The notes beneath the pieces were generated by a model. That model was not told the DNA's origin, made no database searches, and saw nothing but the letters and a program-made list of their open reading frames with translations. The translations under genes were made by a program, and so were the position numbers. DNA of 64,000 nucleotides from Lachnospiraceae bacterium (GTDB lineage Bacteria; Bacillota; Clostridia; Lachnospirales; Lachnospiraceae), in contig AP025576.1 of the NCBI GenBank assembly GCA_022845955.1, forward strand, positions 2,542,001 through 2,606,000, read 5' to 3'. Positions 361 to 8,154 of the stretch are shown piece by piece (the first letter of the stretch is position 1; the number at the start of each line of letters is the position of its first letter).

Positions 361-1260
361 ATGGATATTCTGGTATTGGGAGGAACCCGTTTTTTCGGCG
401 TTCATCTGGTTGAAAGACTTTTGCAGGCAGGACATCGGGTCACAATAGCAACCAGAGGGCGGACAGAGGATCCCTTTGGAGAGCGGGTAAAACGTCTGAA
501 AGTGGAGAGAACAGACGGGGAAGATATGAGAAAAGTATTCTGGGGCCGCTGCTATGACTTGGTTTATGATAACCTGGCATATTGCCCGATGGATATAAAA
601 ACAGCTCTGGATGCCATTTCCTGCGGACGTTATATTTTTACTTCTTCCGCATCGGTATATGAACTGCACAGGGACACCAGGGAATCGGATTTTTCCCCGG
701 AAGGAAAAGAACTTGTATGGTGCCGCCGCGAGGAAGTGGAATATGACGAAGGGAAAAAAGGGGCTGAAAGCGCTTTGGTACACGCATATCCCGGACAAAA
801 GGCGGCATTTGTCCGTTTTCCGTTTGTGATTGGAGAAGACGATTATACGGACAGGCTCTATTTTTATGTGAAGAATACGATACAGGGGATTCCTATGTAT
901 GTAGATAATCCGGACTGCCGGATGAGCTTTATCGGCTCCGCGGATGCGGGATCCTTTTTAGCGCAGCTCGCGGCAGCGAAGCTGGAGGGGCCTGTAAATG
1001 CCTGCTGTAAGGGAACCCTTTCCATCAGGGAAATACTGACATGGGTAACCGCAGAAACAGGAAAAATTCCTGTCCTGTGTGAGGAAGCTGCCCCGGCGCC
1101 CTATAATGGAGCAGAAGATTACAGTCTGAATACGGATAAGGCAGAACAGGCCGGTATCCGGTTCCGGGATCTTCACAGCTGGATTTTCGGGCTGCTTGCC
1201 CATTATGTGGAGCGAGCTGGAAAAGAAATAAGCCCTTCTTTTTTTAAGAAAGGAATATGA
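361..1260 (+). CDS. NAD-dependent epimerase/dehydratase family protein
   Basis: The 299-residue product is an extended short-chain dehydrogenase. Residues 5-13 hold the nucleotide-binding glycine motif (LGGTRFFG), followed by an arginine-containing stretch (ATRGR) that could select NADP over NAD. A Y-x3-K catalytic pair is present in the YDEGK segment near residue 130. The substrate cannot be read from sequence; relatives act on nucleotide sugars or are annotated as RNA-binding SDR paralogues. An AGGAG-like site precedes the ATG. The next gene, a methyltransferase 83 bp downstream, is co-directional and may share the transcript. Confidence 0.85.
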   Translation: MDILVLGGTRFFGVHLVERLLQAGHRVTIATRGRTEDPFGERVKRLKVERTDGEDMRKVFWGRCYDLVYDNLAYCPMDIKTALDAISCGRYIFTSSASVYELHRDTRESDFSPEGKELVWCRREEVEYDEGKKGAESALVHAYPGQKAAFVRFPFVIGEDDYTDRLYFYVKNTIQGIPMYVDNPDCRMSFIGSADAGSFLAQLAAAKLEGPVNACCKGTLSIREILTWVTAETGKIPVLCEEAAPAPYNGAEDYSLNTDKAEQAGIRFRDLHSWIFGLLAHYVERAGKEISPSFFKKGI

Positions 1261-1343
1261 GGTTCCGTTTCATTTGGAGTCCTGTTACAATAAGCGGGAA
1301 AGAAAAATAGCGGAGCGGCAGGATAGGAGGCGGGTGAAGCAGA

Positions 1344-2057
1344 ATGCAGAATAAGATGATTATAAGAGAAAATACAGAAGCTTATATGAAGGAACTCCGT
1401 AGGTGGACAGAGCAGGTACAAGACAGCAGACTGGAAGAAATGGCCTCTTTTTTCAGAGACAGACTGGGAGAGTATGAGGCGCATATGTCCGTTTGGCGTT
1501 CCGCCTATAAACACTTGGCAGCACTCATCCCTGAAAATACGGAAACCCTGCTGGATTTGGGATGCGGCACAGGTCTGGAGCTGGATGAAATACTGCCAGT
1601 CCGTCCTGCCCTTGAGGTGACGGGAATCGATTTATCACAGGATATGCTTGCGGTTTTATCGGCTAAACACCCGCAGGTTAAACTGATTCAGGCGGACTAT
1701 TTCCGTTATGATTTTGGAAAACAGGTTTATGATATGGCGGTTTCCTTTGAATCCCTGCACCACTTCAAGCCTGCGCTAAAGCAGAAGTTATACAGGCGGA
1801 TATGGGAAGCGTTGAAAGAAGGCGGAACTTTTATAGAAGCGGATTATATTGCCTGCTGCGAGGAAGAGGAAACATTATTAATGGGTCTTTACGATTCCAA
1901 GCGCGAAAAAGAAAAAGTCCCGGAGAATGTTTATGTCCATTTTGATACGCCGCTTACCTGGGAGCACGAGAGAGAAGCCCTTTCCGGGGCGGGCTTTACA
2001 GGCGTGGAACTTATCTGCAGTATCGAAGGGGCAACCTTCATAAGAGCGGAAAAGTAG
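1344..2057 (+). CDS. Class I SAM-dependent methyltransferase
   Basis: The 237-residue protein has the SAM-binding motif I (LLDLGCGTGLELDEI) at about residues 68-82, an acidic motif II end (VTGIDLS), and a post-motif FESLHHF segment of the UbiE/Methyltransf_25 type. The N-terminal 60 residues are charged and helical. The acceptor is unknown. An AGGAGG site lies 13 bp upstream of this ATG; an in-frame ATG at 1356 is a possible alternative. It is the last gene before the CRISPR leader. Confidence 0.85.
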   Translation: MQNKMIIRENTEAYMKELRRWTEQVQDSRLEEMASFFRDRLGEYEAHMSVWRSAYKHLAALIPENTETLLDLGCGTGLELDEILPVRPALEVTGIDLSQDMLAVLSAKHPQVKLIQADYFRYDFGKQVYDMAVSFESLHHFKPALKQKLYRRIWEALKEGGTFIEADYIACCEEEETLLMGLYDSKREKEKVPENVYVHFDTPLTWEHEREALSGAGFTGVELICSIEGATFIRAEK

Positions 2058-2261
2058 AAGAATAAAAAGAAAAACATGCTGATGATAGTAAGGTGCGAAC
2101 CCCAAGTGCACATGAATTTACCGGGGGATTCGCACCTTGTTTTGTGTGGAAAACGAGGTTTTTTTGACGGTTTTAGAGAGAAAAAGTACGAATAGGATAG
2201 ATTTTCGGTAGTTTGAACAAGGAAAATGTGTTAGAATGAGATGAAAACGTTGAGTTTTGCA
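2058..2261 (+). promoter_or_regulatory. CRISPR leader 1
   Basis: This AT-rich stretch directly precedes the first repeat of array 1. At 2092-2136 it carries an imperfect palindrome that opens GGTGCGAA and closes with its complement TTCGCACC, with GTGCACAT and a GGGGG tract inside. The same arrangement occurs in leader 2. The 3' end of the palindrome is 125 bp from the first repeat. The degenerate repeats at the other end of the array support this as the leader side. Confidence 0.8.
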
Positions 2262-3436
2262 GTCACAACCCTTTGCGGGTTGTGTGGATTGAAATCCGCG
2301 TATGAAGGCACTGAAATAAATGCACGGAGGTCACAACCCTTTGCGGGTTGTGTGGATTGAAATTTCCAATCGGTCATACGCCAGTCCTATATACCAGTCA
2401 CAACCCTTTGCGGGTTGTGTGGATTGAAATCCATAAATCCCTCAAGTGTTTTCAGGCTTGTCAGTCACAACCCTTTGCGGGTTGTGTGGATTGAAATGCA
2501 CCAATTCCTACATTATGCGCGCCGGTTGTGTGTCACAACCCTTTGCGGGTTGTGTGGATTGAAATTTCCTGGTTGGGATGCTTGCGGACGGCCTGGGAGT
2601 CACAACCCTTTGCGGGTTGTGTGGATTGAAATAGGGAAGTTTGGGAGAAACACCATACCCGGACACGTCACAACCCTTTGCGGGTTGTGTGGATTGAAAT
2701 ACTTTTCAGTCAACTATTTCTATACCTTTACAAAAGTCACAACCCTTTGCGGGTTGTGTGGATTGAAATTCCTTTTCGGCTGCAGCCGACAAATTATCAC
2801 TTGTCACAACCCTTTGCGGGTTGTGTGGATTGAAATCATCTGTATTATTTATCATCCTATACCGTCGTTTTGTCACAACCCTTTGCGGGTTGTGTGGATT
2901 GAAATTTGCGATACAGGGCACAGCCTACGAACAACAACAGGTCACAACCCTTTGCGGGTTGTGTGGATTGAAATTAGTAAATCCCCCGGCTGACATTGTA
3001 ATACATTGTCACAACCCTTTGCGGGTTGTGTGGATTGAAATTGCATTACAACAGAGCGAAGGTATACGGGGAAAGTCACAACCCTTTGCGGGTTGTGTGG
3101 ATTGAAATACGCGTCATTCCGCGCCTGTTTAGCATGTCCAATGTCACAACCCTTTGCGGGTTGTGTGGATTGAAATGTGAGAAAGAGACGGCTGTTGTAT
3201 ACGGGCCTGGTCACAACCCTTTGCGGGTTGTGTGGATTGAAATATTTTTATTGGATAATGTTTTCGCCGAACTTTTGTCACAACCCTTTGCGGGTTGTGT
3301 GGATTGAAATGCATCAAAATATGGTTATTAGCCCTAAAAATAAGGTCACAACCCTTTGCGGGTTTAAATCCGATTATGGTATCGGTGTTGTCTTTACAAA
3401 TCGTCACAATCCTTTGTGGGCCTTGTGGACATTTAT
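2262..3436 (+). CRISPR. CRISPR array 1, 34-nt repeat, type I-C-like
   Basis: Sixteen identical 34-nt repeats start at 2262, 2330, 2397, 2464, 2532, 2599, 2667, 2736, 2803, 2872, 2941, 3008, 3075, 3143, 3210 and 3277. Spacers are 33-35 nt and all differ. The repeat starts GTCACAACCC and ends GGATTGAAAT; CACAACCC pairs with GGGTTGTG as an 8-bp stem. The ATTGAAAT 3' end is typical of type I-C (and some I-B) repeats. Two decayed repeats close the array: one truncated at 3345-3365 and one with several substitutions at 3403-3436. No cas genes lie in the window. Confidence 0.97.
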
Positions 3437-3710
3437 TATTGTGGTATACTAATAAAAGTGAATTAGTTTATGAGAAGAAAAATTGTGCTGTAATAGTTAA
3501 GTATGGTAACTTTTAATAACGAGTGGGTAGAAAATTTTATGGTGCGAATGTGAAGTGTACATAAAAACATGGGGGGATTCGCACTGTAAAAAAACTGAAT
3601 AATGCATGGATATAATTGTTTTATAAATACATAACAAACAATGGTTAATGATTTTATGAAAAGAGTATAGTTTTTGCCTTTATGAAGCATGATTTTTGAT
3701 ATTTTTTGCT
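3437..3710 (+). promoter_or_regulatory. CRISPR leader 2
   Basis: This AT-rich, non-coding stretch lies between the arrays. At 3541-3584 it carries the same palindromic motif as leader 1: GGTGCGAA at the left, GTGTACAT in the middle, a G6 tract, then ATTCGCAC. The motif ends 126 bp before the first repeat of array 2, against 125 bp in leader 1. The rest of the leader is poorly conserved, so the motif is likely functional, for example in spacer acquisition. Confidence 0.8.
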
Positions 3711-4397
3711 GTCGAGGCTTTCACAGCCTCGTGGATTGAAATTGGTGGAGAAAAACAAAGGCTGGCATTGGCTAGGTCGAGGCTTTCACAGCCTCGTGGA
3801 TTGAAATCTGGAGACGGAGTTGAAAAAAGCCGAAAAAGCTGTCGAGGCTTTCACAGCCTCGTGGATTGAAATCATCTTCCCACATCCCTTCTTCATTCAG
3901 CCGGTACGTCGAGGCTTTCACAGCCTCGTGGATTGAAATGCCCTCAGTATGAGGTAGGAGATTGCGGTCTGAGTCGAGGCTTTCACAGCCTCGTGGATTG
4001 AAATATAAAATGCCCATATCCTCCCCTGTATAAAGTTGTCGAGGCTTTCACAGCCTCGTGGATTGAAATAACCGTCTTTTCCCACAATGACATATTATCC
4101 CATGTCGAGGCTTTCACAGCCTCGTGGATTGAAATAAAATCTCCTTTAGTGTAAAAACTGTCAATATTATGTCGAGGCTTTCACAGCCTCGTGGATTGAA
4201 ATATCTTTTGTAATGAGGCAAGTTTCAGATGCCCTGAGTCGAGGCTTTCACAGCCTCGTGGATTGAAATCAGGAAATGGAAAGAGAATTGAACATGAAAA
4301 TAGCGTCGAGGCTTTCACAGCCTCGTGGATTGAAATTCGATTTTATCTATGTCAATCCTCATAGTCTCTCGTCGAGGATTTCACAGCCACGCCGTAC
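3711..4397 (+). CRISPR. CRISPR array 2, 32-nt repeat, type I-C-like
   Basis: Ten identical 32-nt repeats start at 3711, 3776, 3841, 3908, 3973, 4038, 4104, 4171, 4238 and 4305, with unique 33-35-nt spacers. The repeat starts GTCGAGGCTT and ends GGATTGAAAT; CGAGGCT and AGCCTCG form a 7-bp stem. A decayed eleventh repeat begins at 4371 and loses similarity after about 20 nt. The orientation matches array 1. The stem sequence differs completely from array 1 while the 3' handle is the same, so both arrays could feed one type I-C Cas complex. Confidence 0.97.
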
Positions 4398-4856
4398 GTC
4401 TGTTTTACCGGTGATTTCCTAATTGAAAATCAGATGAATGGAGGATGGAAAGAGGGTTTGTGATGAAGGCTCGTTCCGAACGTCACTTTCTGTTTCTGAC
4501 AAAAAATAACGTATTATGGACTGTATCCCTGCTGATTGAGGCAGGTGGTTCCAAACTTTTTTATCCACACCCTGGAATTCAGAATAAGGCAGATTTCAGA
4601 CTGCCTTATCTTCCGGGGGAAACCTCTGTAATTAGCCTGTTCCCGTCCTGATTCTGTTATCTCTCAACCTGCGGATAAGGGTTGACATTGTCCCGCGTCT
4701 CTGCCGTTTCCGGCCTCATAAAATCCGGTCAAAAATAAAAAAATTTGAAAGGGATAGATTTTCCCTTCCTTTTACGAATCAGATAGTGAAAGGAGTAAAC
4801 CAAAGGATAGAAAAAAGAGGCTGCAGACTCGGCTTTGGTTTGAGATGGAGTGGTGT
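4398..4856. other. Intergenic region between array 2 and the sigma-factor gene
   Basis: I see no convincing gene. A 68-codon frame at 4445-4651 has no recognisable features. A hairpin with a 9-bp arm (ATAAGGCAG) spans 4584-4609 without a T tract. The A/T-rich tract just before 4800 probably contains the promoter of the ECF sigma gene, but no clear -35/-10 pair is visible. Confidence 0.5.
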
Positions 4857-5405
4857 ATGAAAGCAAATGAAGATAATTTTATCTCCCTGATAAAGAAACG
4901 CCGGGAAGAGGGAATCCGGTATGTAATGGAAGAATATGGAGGATTGCTTCAATCCATAGTGAAAAAAAGGCTCTTCGGTATGCCGGACAGGATTGAAGAA
5001 TGTATGAATGACATTTTCTTCGGTATTTGGAATAATATCAGTTCCTTCGACCCCGGCAGAAGCAGCTTTAAGAATTGGGCGGCAGGAGTTGCCCGGTTTC
5101 AGGCTATTGATTATCTGCGCAGATACGGAAGGCAGCTTCAGCAGGAAGCATGGGAAGATGTGGAATTTCCCGTGGAGGATGATAACCTGCTGCGTCTTGT
5201 TGAAAGAGAGCTTTCCCGGGAGACGGAGGAGCTGCTGAACTGCCTGAAACCAGAGGACAGGGAAATCTTTGCAAGGATTTTCATACAGGATCAGGATGTG
5301 GAAACGGTAAGTGTGGAAATGGGGATTCCCAGGGCCGCCGTTTATAACAAAATCTCCCGCGGCAAGAAAAAAATGAGGCGCGCTGCGGGTGAAAACCGGA
5401 AATAA
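4857..5405 (+). CDS. ECF-type RNA polymerase sigma factor
   Basis: The product (182 residues from this start) has a sigma-70 region 2 at about residues 25-90, including a ..FDPGRSSFKNWAAGVARFQAIDYLRR.. core split over 5050-5130. Region 4 at about 125-175 shows the VETVSVEMGIPRAAVYNKISRG helix-turn-helix. An in-frame ATG at 4845 exists, but a GGAG site is placed correctly only for 4857. The next gene starts 10 bp downstream and encodes a single-span membrane protein of the DUF4179 family, which in Firmicutes commonly pairs with ECF factors as the putative anti-sigma factor. The stimulus is unknown. Confidence 0.85.
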   Translation: MKANEDNFISLIKKRREEGIRYVMEEYGGLLQSIVKKRLFGMPDRIEECMNDIFFGIWNNISSFDPGRSSFKNWAAGVARFQAIDYLRRYGRQLQQEAWEDVEFPVEDDNLLRLVERELSRETEELLNCLKPEDREIFARIFIQDQDVETVSVEMGIPRAAVYNKISRGKKKMRRAAGENRK

Positions 5406-5415
5406 GGAGTAAGCT

Positions 5416-6480
5416 ATGGATAAAAAAATATATGATATGGCTAACAATATTGTCACGGGCTTTTCCGAAGAGGAAAATGCGGAACAGGATATAAGGAAGC
5501 TGACAGAAGCAGAAACAGGAAAATATATGCACAATTTCAGAAAAAGAAAGAAAGGCGGAAAGAAAAGTATACCGGGGCCTGGAAAAATGGCGGTTTGTGC
5601 TGCGGCACTGCTTCTTATCGTGGGAACAGCCGCAGCAAGCAGTGAGGTACATGCCGCTATAGAACGGCTGCAGTGGACAATCGGAAGTGCACTGGGCCTG
5701 CAGAAGGATTTGGAGGATTACAAGGAGGTTGTGGATACTACGGTGATGGACAGCGGTTATGCGCTGACTTTGCATGAGGTAGTGGCATCCGAGGAAGAGC
5801 TGTGGATCAATTTGTCCGTACAGAAAGAAGACGGTACCCCTCTATCCCTGGATGAAATTTCCCCCGACGGTATTATTGCAATCAATGGAAAACGGATATA
5901 TGCAGGAAGCGGCGGCGGAATCCATTATCTGAATGAGGAAAAGACGGCTGTCGGAATGGAAATGCATTACAGCAGCGACGGCGTGGATCTGACAGGAGAG
6001 AAAGATTACCAGATCATTTTCCGCCATTTGGATAGGGAAGGGAAAATCAAAGGAAACTGGACCTTTTCCTTTACGGCCGATGCCTCCACTTTAATGGCGG
6101 ATACGCTGCGCATCCCTCTGGAGAAAACCTTTACGCTCCCCAACGGAATTGCTGTTACGCTGACTGAATTTACCAGCAACGATCTGGAACAGCGGATTTT
6201 TTATACCGCGGAGGCAAAAGAAGCGATAGATTACGATTTACTTGTCAAAGCTATAGATGAGGAGGGGCAGGAATACACCTTTTATTTAAGCCAGTTTAAC
6301 GGCAAAGAGAAAAAAGGGTACCTGCGTGCCCAGGATACACGGATTCCGGATGGGATCGCTCATGTGGAAATGACTCTTTATACGGTAGCCATGCCGAAGG
6401 AAAACGGCAAAATGAGTAACGATTTCCAGCCGCTGGGAGACAGCTTTATGGTGGAAGTCAAAAAACCTGCGGGAATATAA
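5416..6480 (+). CDS. DUF4179-family membrane protein, probable anti-sigma factor
   Basis: The 354-residue protein has a charged cytoplasmic N-terminus (about 1-56), ending in a lysine-rich stop-transfer segment, and one transmembrane helix at about 57-78 (MAVCAAALLLIVGTAAASS). A large extracytoplasmic DUF4179-type beta domain follows. Its position directly after an ECF sigma gene suggests that the N-terminal part binds the sigma factor and the outer domain senses a signal. No zinc-binding HxxxCxxC anti-sigma motif is visible, so the inhibitory role is inferred from context. Confidence 0.75.
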   Translation: MDKKIYDMANNIVTGFSEEENAEQDIRKLTEAETGKYMHNFRKRKKGGKKSIPGPGKMAVCAAALLLIVGTAAASSEVHAAIERLQWTIGSALGLQKDLEDYKEVVDTTVMDSGYALTLHEVVASEEELWINLSVQKEDGTPLSLDEISPDGIIAINGKRIYAGSGGGIHYLNEEKTAVGMEMHYSSDGVDLTGEKDYQIIFRHLDREGKIKGNWTFSFTADASTLMADTLRIPLEKTFTLPNGIAVTLTEFTSNDLEQRIFYTAEAKEAIDYDLLVKAIDEEGQEYTFYLSQFNGKEKKGYLRAQDTRIPDGIAHVEMTLYTVAMPKENGKMSNDFQPLGDSFMVEVKKPAGI

Positions 6481-6706
6481 GAAACGTACCGTAATCCGGG
6501 TGGCACAACAGAAGAGAACGTAGTACAATAAGGACAGATTTTATGAAAGAAAGGCAACTGTTCAGCAGGTCTGCGCATGTATTGTGCAGACCATAAAAAA
6601 AGATACCGCAGAAAAGCATAAATCCACCGCCTAAGGTGATTTGGCATGGATTTATGTCCTTAGCGGTATGAGTACGGAACCGTTACGAAGAAAGGAAAAC
6701 AGAACC
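6481..6706. other. Intergenic region with two hairpins
   Basis: A GGTCTGC/GCAGACC hairpin lies at 6570-6594. A longer interrupted one has arms 6603-6609 with 6663-6669 (ATACCGC) and 6617-6626 with 6647-6656 (CATAAATCCA). The second may act in the 5' leader of the NUDIX gene or end the preceding transcript; no T tract follows it. Confidence 0.45.
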
Positions 6707-7231
6707 ATGAAATTTACCTACTGCCCGGACTGCGGCACGAAACTGATACAAAAGGAGATCGGGGATGAAGGGCTGGTGCCCTGGTGTGAATGCTGCAATA
6801 AGCCCTTTTTTGATATGTTCTCCACCTGCATTATCGCCCTGGTGGCTGATGAATACGGGGAGGTAGCCCTTCTCCGGCAGGGCTACATTTCCCATAAATA
6901 CTATAATCTGGTTTCCGGCTATATGAAGCCGGGGGAAACAGCCGAATATACGGCGGTCAGGGAAGTGGAGGAAGAAATCGGTGTACGGGTGGAAAACCTC
7001 CGTCCGGCAGGCACCTTTTGGTTTGGCAGGAAGGATATGCTGATGATTGGCTTTCTTGCGGAGGCGAAAAAGAAGAAACTGGAACTTTCGGGGGAAGTGG
7101 ATGATGCGGTGTGGGTGGATGCTTCCCGGGCGCTGGAGATGGTGCATCCGGAGGGAAGCGTTTCTTATACATTGGTGGAATCCTATTTGAAGGAACAGGG
7201 ACACAAACGGCAGAAGGGAAGCTCTTTATGA
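6707..7231 (+). CDS. NUDIX hydrolase with N-terminal zinc ribbon
   Basis: The 174-residue protein starts with a CPDCG..CECC zinc-ribbon-like pair and carries a complete NUDIX box: G-x5-E-x7-REVEEEIG, beginning at GYMKPGE. This architecture is like NudC/YjaD-type NAD(+) or mRNA-cap pyrophosphatases, but the protein is shorter than NudC. It probably hydrolyses a nucleoside diphosphate linked to another moiety. An AAAGGA site precedes 6707; upstream in-frame starts lie inside the hairpin region. Its stop overlaps the next start by 4 bp (ATGA), so the two are translationally coupled. Confidence 0.85.
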   Translation: MKFTYCPDCGTKLIQKEIGDEGLVPWCECCNKPFFDMFSTCIIALVADEYGEVALLRQGYISHKYYNLVSGYMKPGETAEYTAVREVEEEIGVRVENLRPAGTFWFGRKDMLMIGFLAEAKKKKLELSGEVDDAVWVDASRALEMVHPEGSVSYTLVESYLKEQGHKRQKGSSL

Positions 7232-8154
7232 AAATAGACCGTCTTATGGCAATCCTGACCATCCTCCTGCGGCAGGAAAAAATAACGGCGCCTGAACTGG
7301 CGGACAGGCTGGAGGTGTCCCGCCGGACCATCAGCCGGGATCTGGATGCGTTATGCCGTGCCGGGATACCGATAGTGACGGAGCAGGGATACGGCGGCGG
7401 AATCTCCCTCGCGTCAGGTTTTAAAATCGATAATTCCCTGCTTACGGATAAGGAAAGGGAGGCACTGCTCACAGGCATCCGGGGGCTTGACAGCGTGGCG
7501 GCATCGTCTCTGGAGGACAGTCTGCGAGAGAAACTGCGGATGATTCCGGATAAAGATATGGCCCCGCAGGAAACGGTGAATATTGATCTGGCCTCCTTTT
7601 ATAAGGACAGTCTTACCGGGAAGCTGGATTTACTGAAGGAGGCTATCCGGGAACACCGGCTGGTTTCCTTTCTGTATTATTCCCGTACAGGAGAGGGGAG
7701 AAGGCTGGTGGAACCGTACCGGATTGTTTTCCGCTGGTCCTCCTGGTATCTGTTCGCCTATTGCAGGGAACGGCAGGATTTCCGCATGTTTAAGCTGAAC
7801 CGGCTGTGGAAAACGGAAACCGAAAAGGAATCTTTTTCTCCCCGGCCCGTGCCAAAGGAAAAACTGGACTTTTCCTCCGGCTTTACGGATGAGATAAGGC
7901 TGCGTGCCAGGTTTTCGGAACGTGTCAAATACAGGCTGATAGAAGAGTATGGCCCCTCCTCCTTCACGTATATGGAGGATGGGTCACTTTTGGTAGAGGA
8001 TCTGGGTTTTACCAATTATCAGGTGCTCCTGGAATGGGCGTTGGGGTTTGGGAGCAGCATGGAAGTGCTGGAACCGGAACGGCTCAGACAGGATATCCGT
8101 AAGGAAGCGTCCCGGATACTTGGGATGTATGACAGGAAAGATTCGGAGTACTAA
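7228..8154 (+). CDS. HTH/WYL-domain transcriptional regulator
   Basis: The 308-residue protein has a DeoR-like winged helix at residues 1-60 (recognition helix LEVSRRTISRDLDAL). A WYL domain follows at about 140-220 (FLYYSRTGEGRRLVEPYRI), then a WCX C-terminal part. WYL domains bind nucleic acid or nucleotide-like ligands. The ATG overlaps the stop of the NUDIX gene, so the regulator may respond to the metabolite handled by that enzyme; this is inference. It most resembles the YafY/YobV group. Confidence 0.88.
   Translation: MKIDRLMAILTILLRQEKITAPELADRLEVSRRTISRDLDALCRAGIPIVTEQGYGGGISLASGFKIDNSLLTDKEREALLTGIRGLDSVAASSLEDSLREKLRMIPDKDMAPQETVNIDLASFYKDSLTGKLDLLKEAIREHRLVSFLYYSRTGEGRRLVEPYRIVFRWSSWYLFAYCRERQDFRMFKLNRLWKTETEKESFSPRPVPKEKLDFSSGFTDEIRLRARFSERVKYRLIEEYGPSSFTYMEDGSLLVEDLGFTNYQVLLEWALGFGSSMEVLEPERLRQDIRKEASRILGMYDRKDSEY

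Follow-up and report, generated by a model that had tools for sequence, protein, structure and literature searches.

Type I-C CRISPR arrays from several phyla carry a palindromic element at a near-constant distance upstream of their first repeat, which we interpret, with a probability of roughly 0.6, as the distal anchor of type I-C leaders, i.e., a DNA site for spacer acquisition that the I-C integrase would recognize in a bent leader. This interpretation comes from sequence comparisons centered on two arrays in a 64,000-nt stretch of the genome of a Lachnospiraceae bacterium (contig AP025576.1, positions 2,542,001 to 2,606,000), hereafter the window, and covering the rest of the host genome, a phylum sample, plasmids, and viral contigs. 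To our knowledge, it is an open question how an I-C system locates the correct array and, within it, the correct end, above all in bacteria without IHF. With a conserved site whose distance is near-constant and possibly phased, such recognition becomes testable by simple leader mutants.

Both leaders in the window contain a palindromic 43-bp core, GTGCGAA-N10-ACAT-N10-GGNGNTTCGCAC, which ends 126 bp before repeat 1. The features of this region, in window coordinates, are as follows.

2092..2135, plus strand: putative leader anchor motif of array A1, 44 bp including a leading G, with arms GTGCGAA/TTCGCAC.
2136..2261, plus strand: remainder of the A1 leader, 126 bp, with terminal bases TTTTGCA.
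2262..3364, plus strand: CRISPR array A1, with 16 intact 34-nt repeats (GTCACAACCCTTTGCGGGTTGTGTGGATTGAAAT) and then a truncated repeat; a degenerate copy lies near 3403.
3042..3074, plus strand: A1 spacer 12, which has its protospacer in common with spacer 15 of array D1 (at 6.16 Mb), with an identical 5' end and a 3' end 1 nt shorter.
3541..3584, plus strand: putative leader anchor motif of array A2, 44 bp including a leading G, as in A1.
3585..3710, plus strand: remainder of the A2 leader, 126 bp, with terminal bases TTTTTGCT.
3711..4336, plus strand: CRISPR array A2, with 10 intact 32-nt repeats (GTCGAGGCTTTCACAGCCTCGTGGATTGAAAT); a degenerate copy lies near 4371.

The original prediction, made from the letters of the window, was that two CRISPR arrays share a palindromic leader motif. 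Both arrays proved to be real, each with its motif at the position listed above, and the predicted repeat lengths of 34 and 32 nt were borne out by the 16 and 10 intact copies. The motif-to-repeat distances, put at 125 and 126 bp, needed correction since both measure 126 bp (first repeats at 2262 and 3711), while the statement that the remaining leaders differ holds for most of their length but not for the final bases before the repeat (TTTTGCA and TTTTTGCT). The description of the surroundings as cas-less agrees with a check of five proteins encoded at 361-8154, none of which is a Cas protein. The A1 and A2 repeats fit the type I-C form GTC...stem...GTGGATTGAAAT/C, with a unit of about 65-69 nt, and a scan of the whole window with the motif profile returned the A1 and A2 copies only, a third match being the mirror of A1. 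Directly downstream of array A2, at 4845-6480, there is a gene for a sigma-70-like factor followed by one for a DUF4179 protein.

In the host genome (7.29 Mb, one contig), the 43-bp core had eight matches at three or fewer mismatches, all eight upstream of type I-C arrays. Since the reversed-pattern control at the same stringency gave no site in the whole genome, the motif is not a product of chance. When the core pattern was spaced one base longer, there was no site in the host genome or in the viral contigs described below. The gaps between element and first repeat were 126 (A1), 126 (A2), 128 (B1), 127 (B2), 126 (B3), 128 (B4), 127 (C1), and 128 bp (D1). The repeats of these eight arrays are 31-34 nt long and have eight different sequences, all ending in GGATTGAAAT; a repeat-end pattern has 121 matches in the host genome and, among the matches listed, the fit is to the eight arrays plus one lone match at 2865636, where there is no array. 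Array D1 (locus L234), which has 16 repeats and lies at 6.16 Mb, was discovered via the motif, which is thus a practical tool capable of pointing to an array 3.6 Mb away from the window.

The host encodes a single Cas1, which is part of a complete I-C operon (cas3-cas5c-cas8c-cas7c-cas4-cas1c-cas2) at 4.89 Mb, 2.3 Mb from the window. The operon is surrounded by arrays B1-B4, and the B2 copy of the element begins at the cas2 stop codon. A type I-C cas operon was indeed expected elsewhere in the genome, and the original prediction further held that one I-C-like adaptation machinery encoded outside the window serves both arrays, which is supported by the single Cas1 together with a protospacer shared by A1 and D1. 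The eight arrays hold 104 spacers flanked by intact repeats, of which A1 spacer 12 and D1 spacer 15 are identical over 33 nt counted from the first base, the D1 spacer extending one nt further 3'. Because the A1 and D1 repeats differ, array copying is unlikely to be the cause of this sharing, for which the simple reading is probably two insertions from one protospacer by one machinery. The common 5' end therefore suggests that one machinery probably feeds both arrays. Another such pair lies within B4, where spacers 1 and 3 have 27 identical nt in register and trace to a single protospacer region. A search of phage records for the source of the protospacers, using the window arrays, gave a single record, the repeat-bearing contig MT836291, so that no protospacer, and with it no PAM, was located. 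This faecal contig (L233, MT836291.1, "Bacteriophage sp.," unverified), which is perhaps bacterial, contains 31 copies of GTGGATTGAAA at about 5100-7300, with the element at a gap of 124.

One of the host arrays has aberrant repeats. In B2 (L007, minus strand of G000:C1, about 4885260-4885455), duplication of a 20-nt stem-loop unit brings the repeat of the third unit, counted from the leader, to 52 nt. The two newest repeat copies are 31 and 35 nt long when measured from the leader edge as the stretch shared with the next copy, where chance matches may lengthen the second. These copies end inside the second stem-loop, without the GTGGATTGAAAT 3' end, and the newer units total 65 and 68 nt, as is normal. 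Since the newest copies lack the usual repeat 3' end, insertion appears to be set from the leader side. B2 thus looks like a natural experiment in which repeat length was measured from the leader side rather than read at the far repeat end, i.e., a natural test of the repeat-length ruler in I-C integration.

We determined how widespread the element is in a phylum sample of 398 genomes, host (G000) included. The exact pattern was found at 17 sites in nine of these genomes, with six of the sites in G000, while the reversed exact pattern was found at none. An I-C-type repeat follows 16 of the 17 sites, which are all those whose downstream DNA was examined. Two observations were named in advance as counting against the idea, namely a host lacking cas1/cas2, which the complete operon contradicts, and a motif common away from CRISPR arrays. 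Instead, bacterial sites are at I-C arrays (8/8 in the host, 16/17 in the sample), the exception being viral contigs, with five of seven at Cas12f-like loci. The suggested check for a fixed spacing across genomes also turned out favorably, with a near-constant gap to the first repeat both in the host and in the sample. Csd1/Cas8c, which marks type I-C, was found in 103 of the 398 genomes, so that the exact pattern, with its nine genomes, sees a small part of I-C leaders. Csd1 was unmatched in three of the nine (G003, G346, and G066), two of which have Cas1c.

We therefore assembled a set of I-C leaders starting from Csd1. Of 95 downstream stretches sought, four did not exist and 91 were obtained; 72 had an array usable by our script, and 70 had a leader of at least 250 nt. 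A motif-free search of these 70 leaders for perfect 6-bp inverted repeats spanning 40-48 bp produced a sharp peak at a gap of 125-127. A flexible profile grown from five seeds, whose training set was identical with the leaders being scored, detected the element in 60/70 leaders at a strict threshold of 20.3. In a leave-one-out scan with similar motifs removed, 67/70 were above the 99% null, 64 of them at a gap of 113-140, and by position alone the best match was at a gap of 113-140 in 65/70 leaders versus 5.2 expected. Three leaders (L131, L133, and L135) fell below the null, and in three others the best match was outside this range, one being at 180. As controls, we used 30 of the many type I-B Cas1 places in the same genomes, none of which had the element at a score of 14 or more (an array was in reach in 23), and 30 of the 37 Cas12f/TnpB-like places of bacterial genomes, only two of which are near Cas12f (L173 and L174, E 7e-105 and 1e-48), again with no element. 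In 754,470 bases of shuffled DNA, there was no profile match above a score of 16.

The distance between element and first repeat is near-constant. Of 61 scored gaps, 50 were at 121-130 (mean 125.3, SD 1.4), while the others were 115 (three), 132, 134, 136 (three), 138 (two), and 180. Most gaps are at 123-128, with minor classes near 115 and 136. When the ten off-centre gaps from 115 to 138 were compared with a 10.5-bp period, the mean cosine was 0.63, with a p of 0.0014 against uniform choice, which ignores kinship between genomes and is a guide only; over eleven gaps, the fit is about as good for a period of 10.5 (0.60) as for one of 11 (0.67). The gaps of 132, 134, and 203 fall out of phase, and plasmid gaps of 133-134 are also not whole turns from 125. 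In genome G066, where no Cas1c or Csd1 was found, two short or decayed arrays have the element at gaps of 159 (L010) and 148 (L019), which suggests, from this one genome, that spacing perhaps drifts once the machinery is lost.

Plasmids extended the survey to other phyla. We chose 18 Cas8c loci from 45 records, in nine of which our script found an array, and counted the gaps by hand from the repeat start. Six of the nine I-C arrays had the element above the 20.3 threshold, and weaker forms were in place elsewhere, as listed here.

Nitratidesulfovibrio vulgaris DP4: gap 136, above threshold, with the element beginning at the cas2 stop codon.
Zymomonas, two loci: gaps 134 and 134, one barely above threshold with a score of 20.6.
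Geminicoccaceae: gap 134, above 20.3.
Rhizobium: gap 133, above 20.3.
Thermus thermophilus: gap 138, above 20.3.
Parabacteroides: gap 124, weaker form of the element in place.
Deinococcus aetherius: gap 135, weaker form of the element in place.

Most plasmid gaps are 8-13 bp longer than those of the window group, which is near, but not exactly, one helical turn. A search of plasmids with the A1 leader gave no match. In Treponema saccharophilum plasmid pTS2 (L154), in the 200 bp before 11819, the right arm of the palindrome seems to have been displaced by an insertion, leaving the arms far apart.

Of 2.9 million viral contigs, seven had a match to the correctly spaced pattern, and a second, strict arm variant (CGCGAACC...GGTTCGCG) matched none. 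"Phage" is here the label of the viral collection, whose contigs can hold host DNA. Two of the seven (L070 and L072) have the element ahead of I-C arrays, with gaps of 125 and 138, while five are Cas12f-like loci, namely L068, L069, L071, and L073, which are identical around the site, and L074. The best solved chain for the L068 and L074 proteins is 8j3r (E 4e-113 and 2e-78), which is named transposase OrfB protein in that entry and which we take to be AsCas12f, and both proteins also match 9nzq, named Cas12f (E 6e-83 and 4e-67). The Pfam Cas12f1-like TNB domain is present in the viral loci tested, while in NCBIfam three proteins tested were assigned to the TnpB family, with the Cas12f2 model below cut-off. 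Scans with Cas12f-like proteins led to 29 distinct viral loci, after duplicates of contig or sequence (L171, L246, L252, and L253) were set aside, and the element was present at a score of at least 19 in eight of these (L165, L166 with the left half only, L170, L172, L245, L247, L248, and L256).

The arrangement of these viral loci is diverse. The gap to the first repeat is 125 in L247, 127 in L248, 125 in L074, 139 in L256, and 179 in L170, with 203 for a lone second repeat. In L247, L248, and L074, the element is inside an apparent tracrRNA gene, where it caps a predicted hairpin that is longer than the element; we presume these to be tracrRNAs from their likeness to a Cas12f tracrRNA. In L074 (9500-11431), the apparent tracrRNA gene holding the element is followed 125 bp on by I-C-type repeats, and there is a Cas12f-like gene, suggesting that this Cas12f may use I-C-type crRNAs. 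In L170, direct copies of the element at 2534-2576 and 4633-4675 bracket a tracrRNA-array-cas12f unit, with another tracrRNA-like stretch and a lone repeat coming after the second copy, and the leader terminates in TTTTTGCT, as many I-C leaders do. In four other loci, the element follows a terminal half repeat and directly precedes the cas12f-like gene (L165, 2912-3000; L172, 2900-2972; L245, 2906-2972; and L166, 2930-2990, left half). Cas12f requires a T-rich PAM, and the possibility that the terminal half repeat plus element serves as a guide against host leaders was rejected because the flanking bases have no such PAM. A tentative reading, which we consider rather less likely than not, is that phages have taken over the element as a docking code for I-C spacer integration. 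Their Cas12f (type V-F) loci carry it in or beside the tracrRNA gene, three at 125-127 bp from the first repeat and one of these (L074) with I-C-type repeats as well, so that the host I-C Cas1-Cas2 might update the phage Cas12f array in trans. If this link is true, a phage nuclease system would borrow the host adaptation machinery via a shared DNA address.

We considered other explanations for the element. The element might act as a structured RNA, either within a long leader transcript or as part of the Cas12f tracrRNA. This is suggested by the folding of both window copies, which surpasses that of each of 200 shuffles (z -5.05 and -5.33), and by the hairpins whose tip it forms in L074, L247, and L248 (predicted z -2.2, -2.4, and -1.5), but any inverted repeat folds. 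Across 62 distinct motifs taken from other genomes, positions 3-5 of the arms hardly vary, and position 2 changes in both arms at once (T-A 29, C-G 26, other 7), which favors the anchor. There is no G-U bias among mismatches over the first nine arm positions (20 G.T plus T.G versus 26 A.C plus C.A), although position 6 alone leans to G.T (eight, with no A.C). No Rfam family matched window 2000-4500 at E<=1, which led us to reject a known RNA, and pairing kept through G-U changes was not seen either. With spacing steps near a helical turn pointing to DNA, an RNA hairpin appears very unlikely. A transcriptional operator or activator site, through which a CRISPR-specific regulator would control the leader promoter, finds support in some placements, with the I-C element being upstream of the array, promoter-like hexamer pairs being present in all eight host leaders, and the element lying directly upstream of the cas12f-like gene in L165, L172, and L245. 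A palindrome with phased spacing would also suit a looping regulator. However, the near-constant distance is to the repeat, whereas the best -10 hexamer in each host leader ranges from -20 to -100 (in a crude scan), which makes regulation a rather unlikely explanation.

The element might otherwise be a module boundary, i.e., a recombination or mobility site where CRISPR modules (cas genes, array, tracrRNA, and cas12f) join or move. This would account for its presence at a module edge in several arrangements, including the cas2 stop codon in N. vulgaris and host array B2 and the two direct copies around the Cas12f-like unit of L170, but a boundary mark would not require a near-constant 125 bp to the first repeat, and we view it as highly improbable. 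Least credible is an inherited residue, now without function, of one ancestral leader from which the arrays were copied. Although arrays of one genome likely share ancestry, the element persists in several phyla, and in alignments it stands out against the poorly conserved leader stretch that separates it from the repeat, a selective conservation that already contradicts such a residue. Two further candidates were rejected: a repeat remnant, since likeness to repeats is limited to short words (by eye), and a cas-operon terminator, since the window copies follow no cas gene, though the host B2 copy starts at the cas2 stop.

Returning to a distal anchor, we propose that Cas1-Cas2 together with Cas4, acting as the I-C integrase, or else a protein specific to this integrase, would bind the palindrome about 12 helical turns upstream while simultaneously engaging the leader-repeat junction, with the intervening leader bent or looped. 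This anchor would mark true arrays and fix insertion at the leader end, which would explain how at least eight arrays, whose repeats differ and some of which lie megabases away, can all be served by the single operon at 4.89 Mb. An anchor for the integrase in a bent leader is favored by the distance, which is kept relative to the repeat and has minor classes offset by roughly one turn. Since in the searches run the element was seen only at CRISPR or Cas12f-like loci, and since it recurs across phyla, the factor that reads it is probably a product of the I-C system, or one reserved for that system, and not a general host factor. Against an anchor is the placement between half repeat and cas12f in L165, L172, L245, and L166, which acquisition does not explain. 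The six leaders with no motif or with an out-of-range best match, the lone phage repeat at 203, and the gaps of 132-134 also count against it, as do the short-leader substrates discussed below.

In the literature searched, we found no description of the I-C element or of its Cas12f link. The I-C part of our findings is not claimed as new, since such a motif may well appear in the catalogue of CRISPR leader motifs by subtype and taxon that Buyukyoruk et al. reportedly published in CRISPR J in 2025.

The closest parallels are in types I-E and I-F, for which Santiago-Frangos et al. are said to have described, in Curr Biol in 2021, upstream leader motifs that are bent to the integrase by IHF. The I-C element resembles these in being a leader element at a near-constant distance to the first repeat, and phase matters there, but it differs in belonging to I-C arrays and in being a 43-bp palindrome, with about 125 bp separating its near end from the repeat. 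Cas2 residues in type I-F contact conserved inverted-repeat leader motifs (PMC12259127), and in systems that depend on IHF the critical variable may be phase and not distance (PMC9602844). In type I-C itself, the portion of the in vitro work on Bacillus halodurans Cas4-Cas1-Cas2 that we consulted (Lee et al. 2019, PMC6519985) concerns the same operon type and used CRISPR substrates in which the leader end, TTTTCGCT before a GTCGCAC repeat, resembles the leader ends here. These substrates had a 10-bp leader only, so that a distal element was out of reach, and the element is therefore not needed for catalysis. As for the viral loci, the L068 and L074 proteins match Cas12f solved chains, as in type V-F, but unlike known type V-F systems some of these loci carry the I-C leader element, three of them at the I-C distance, and L074 also has I-C-type repeats.
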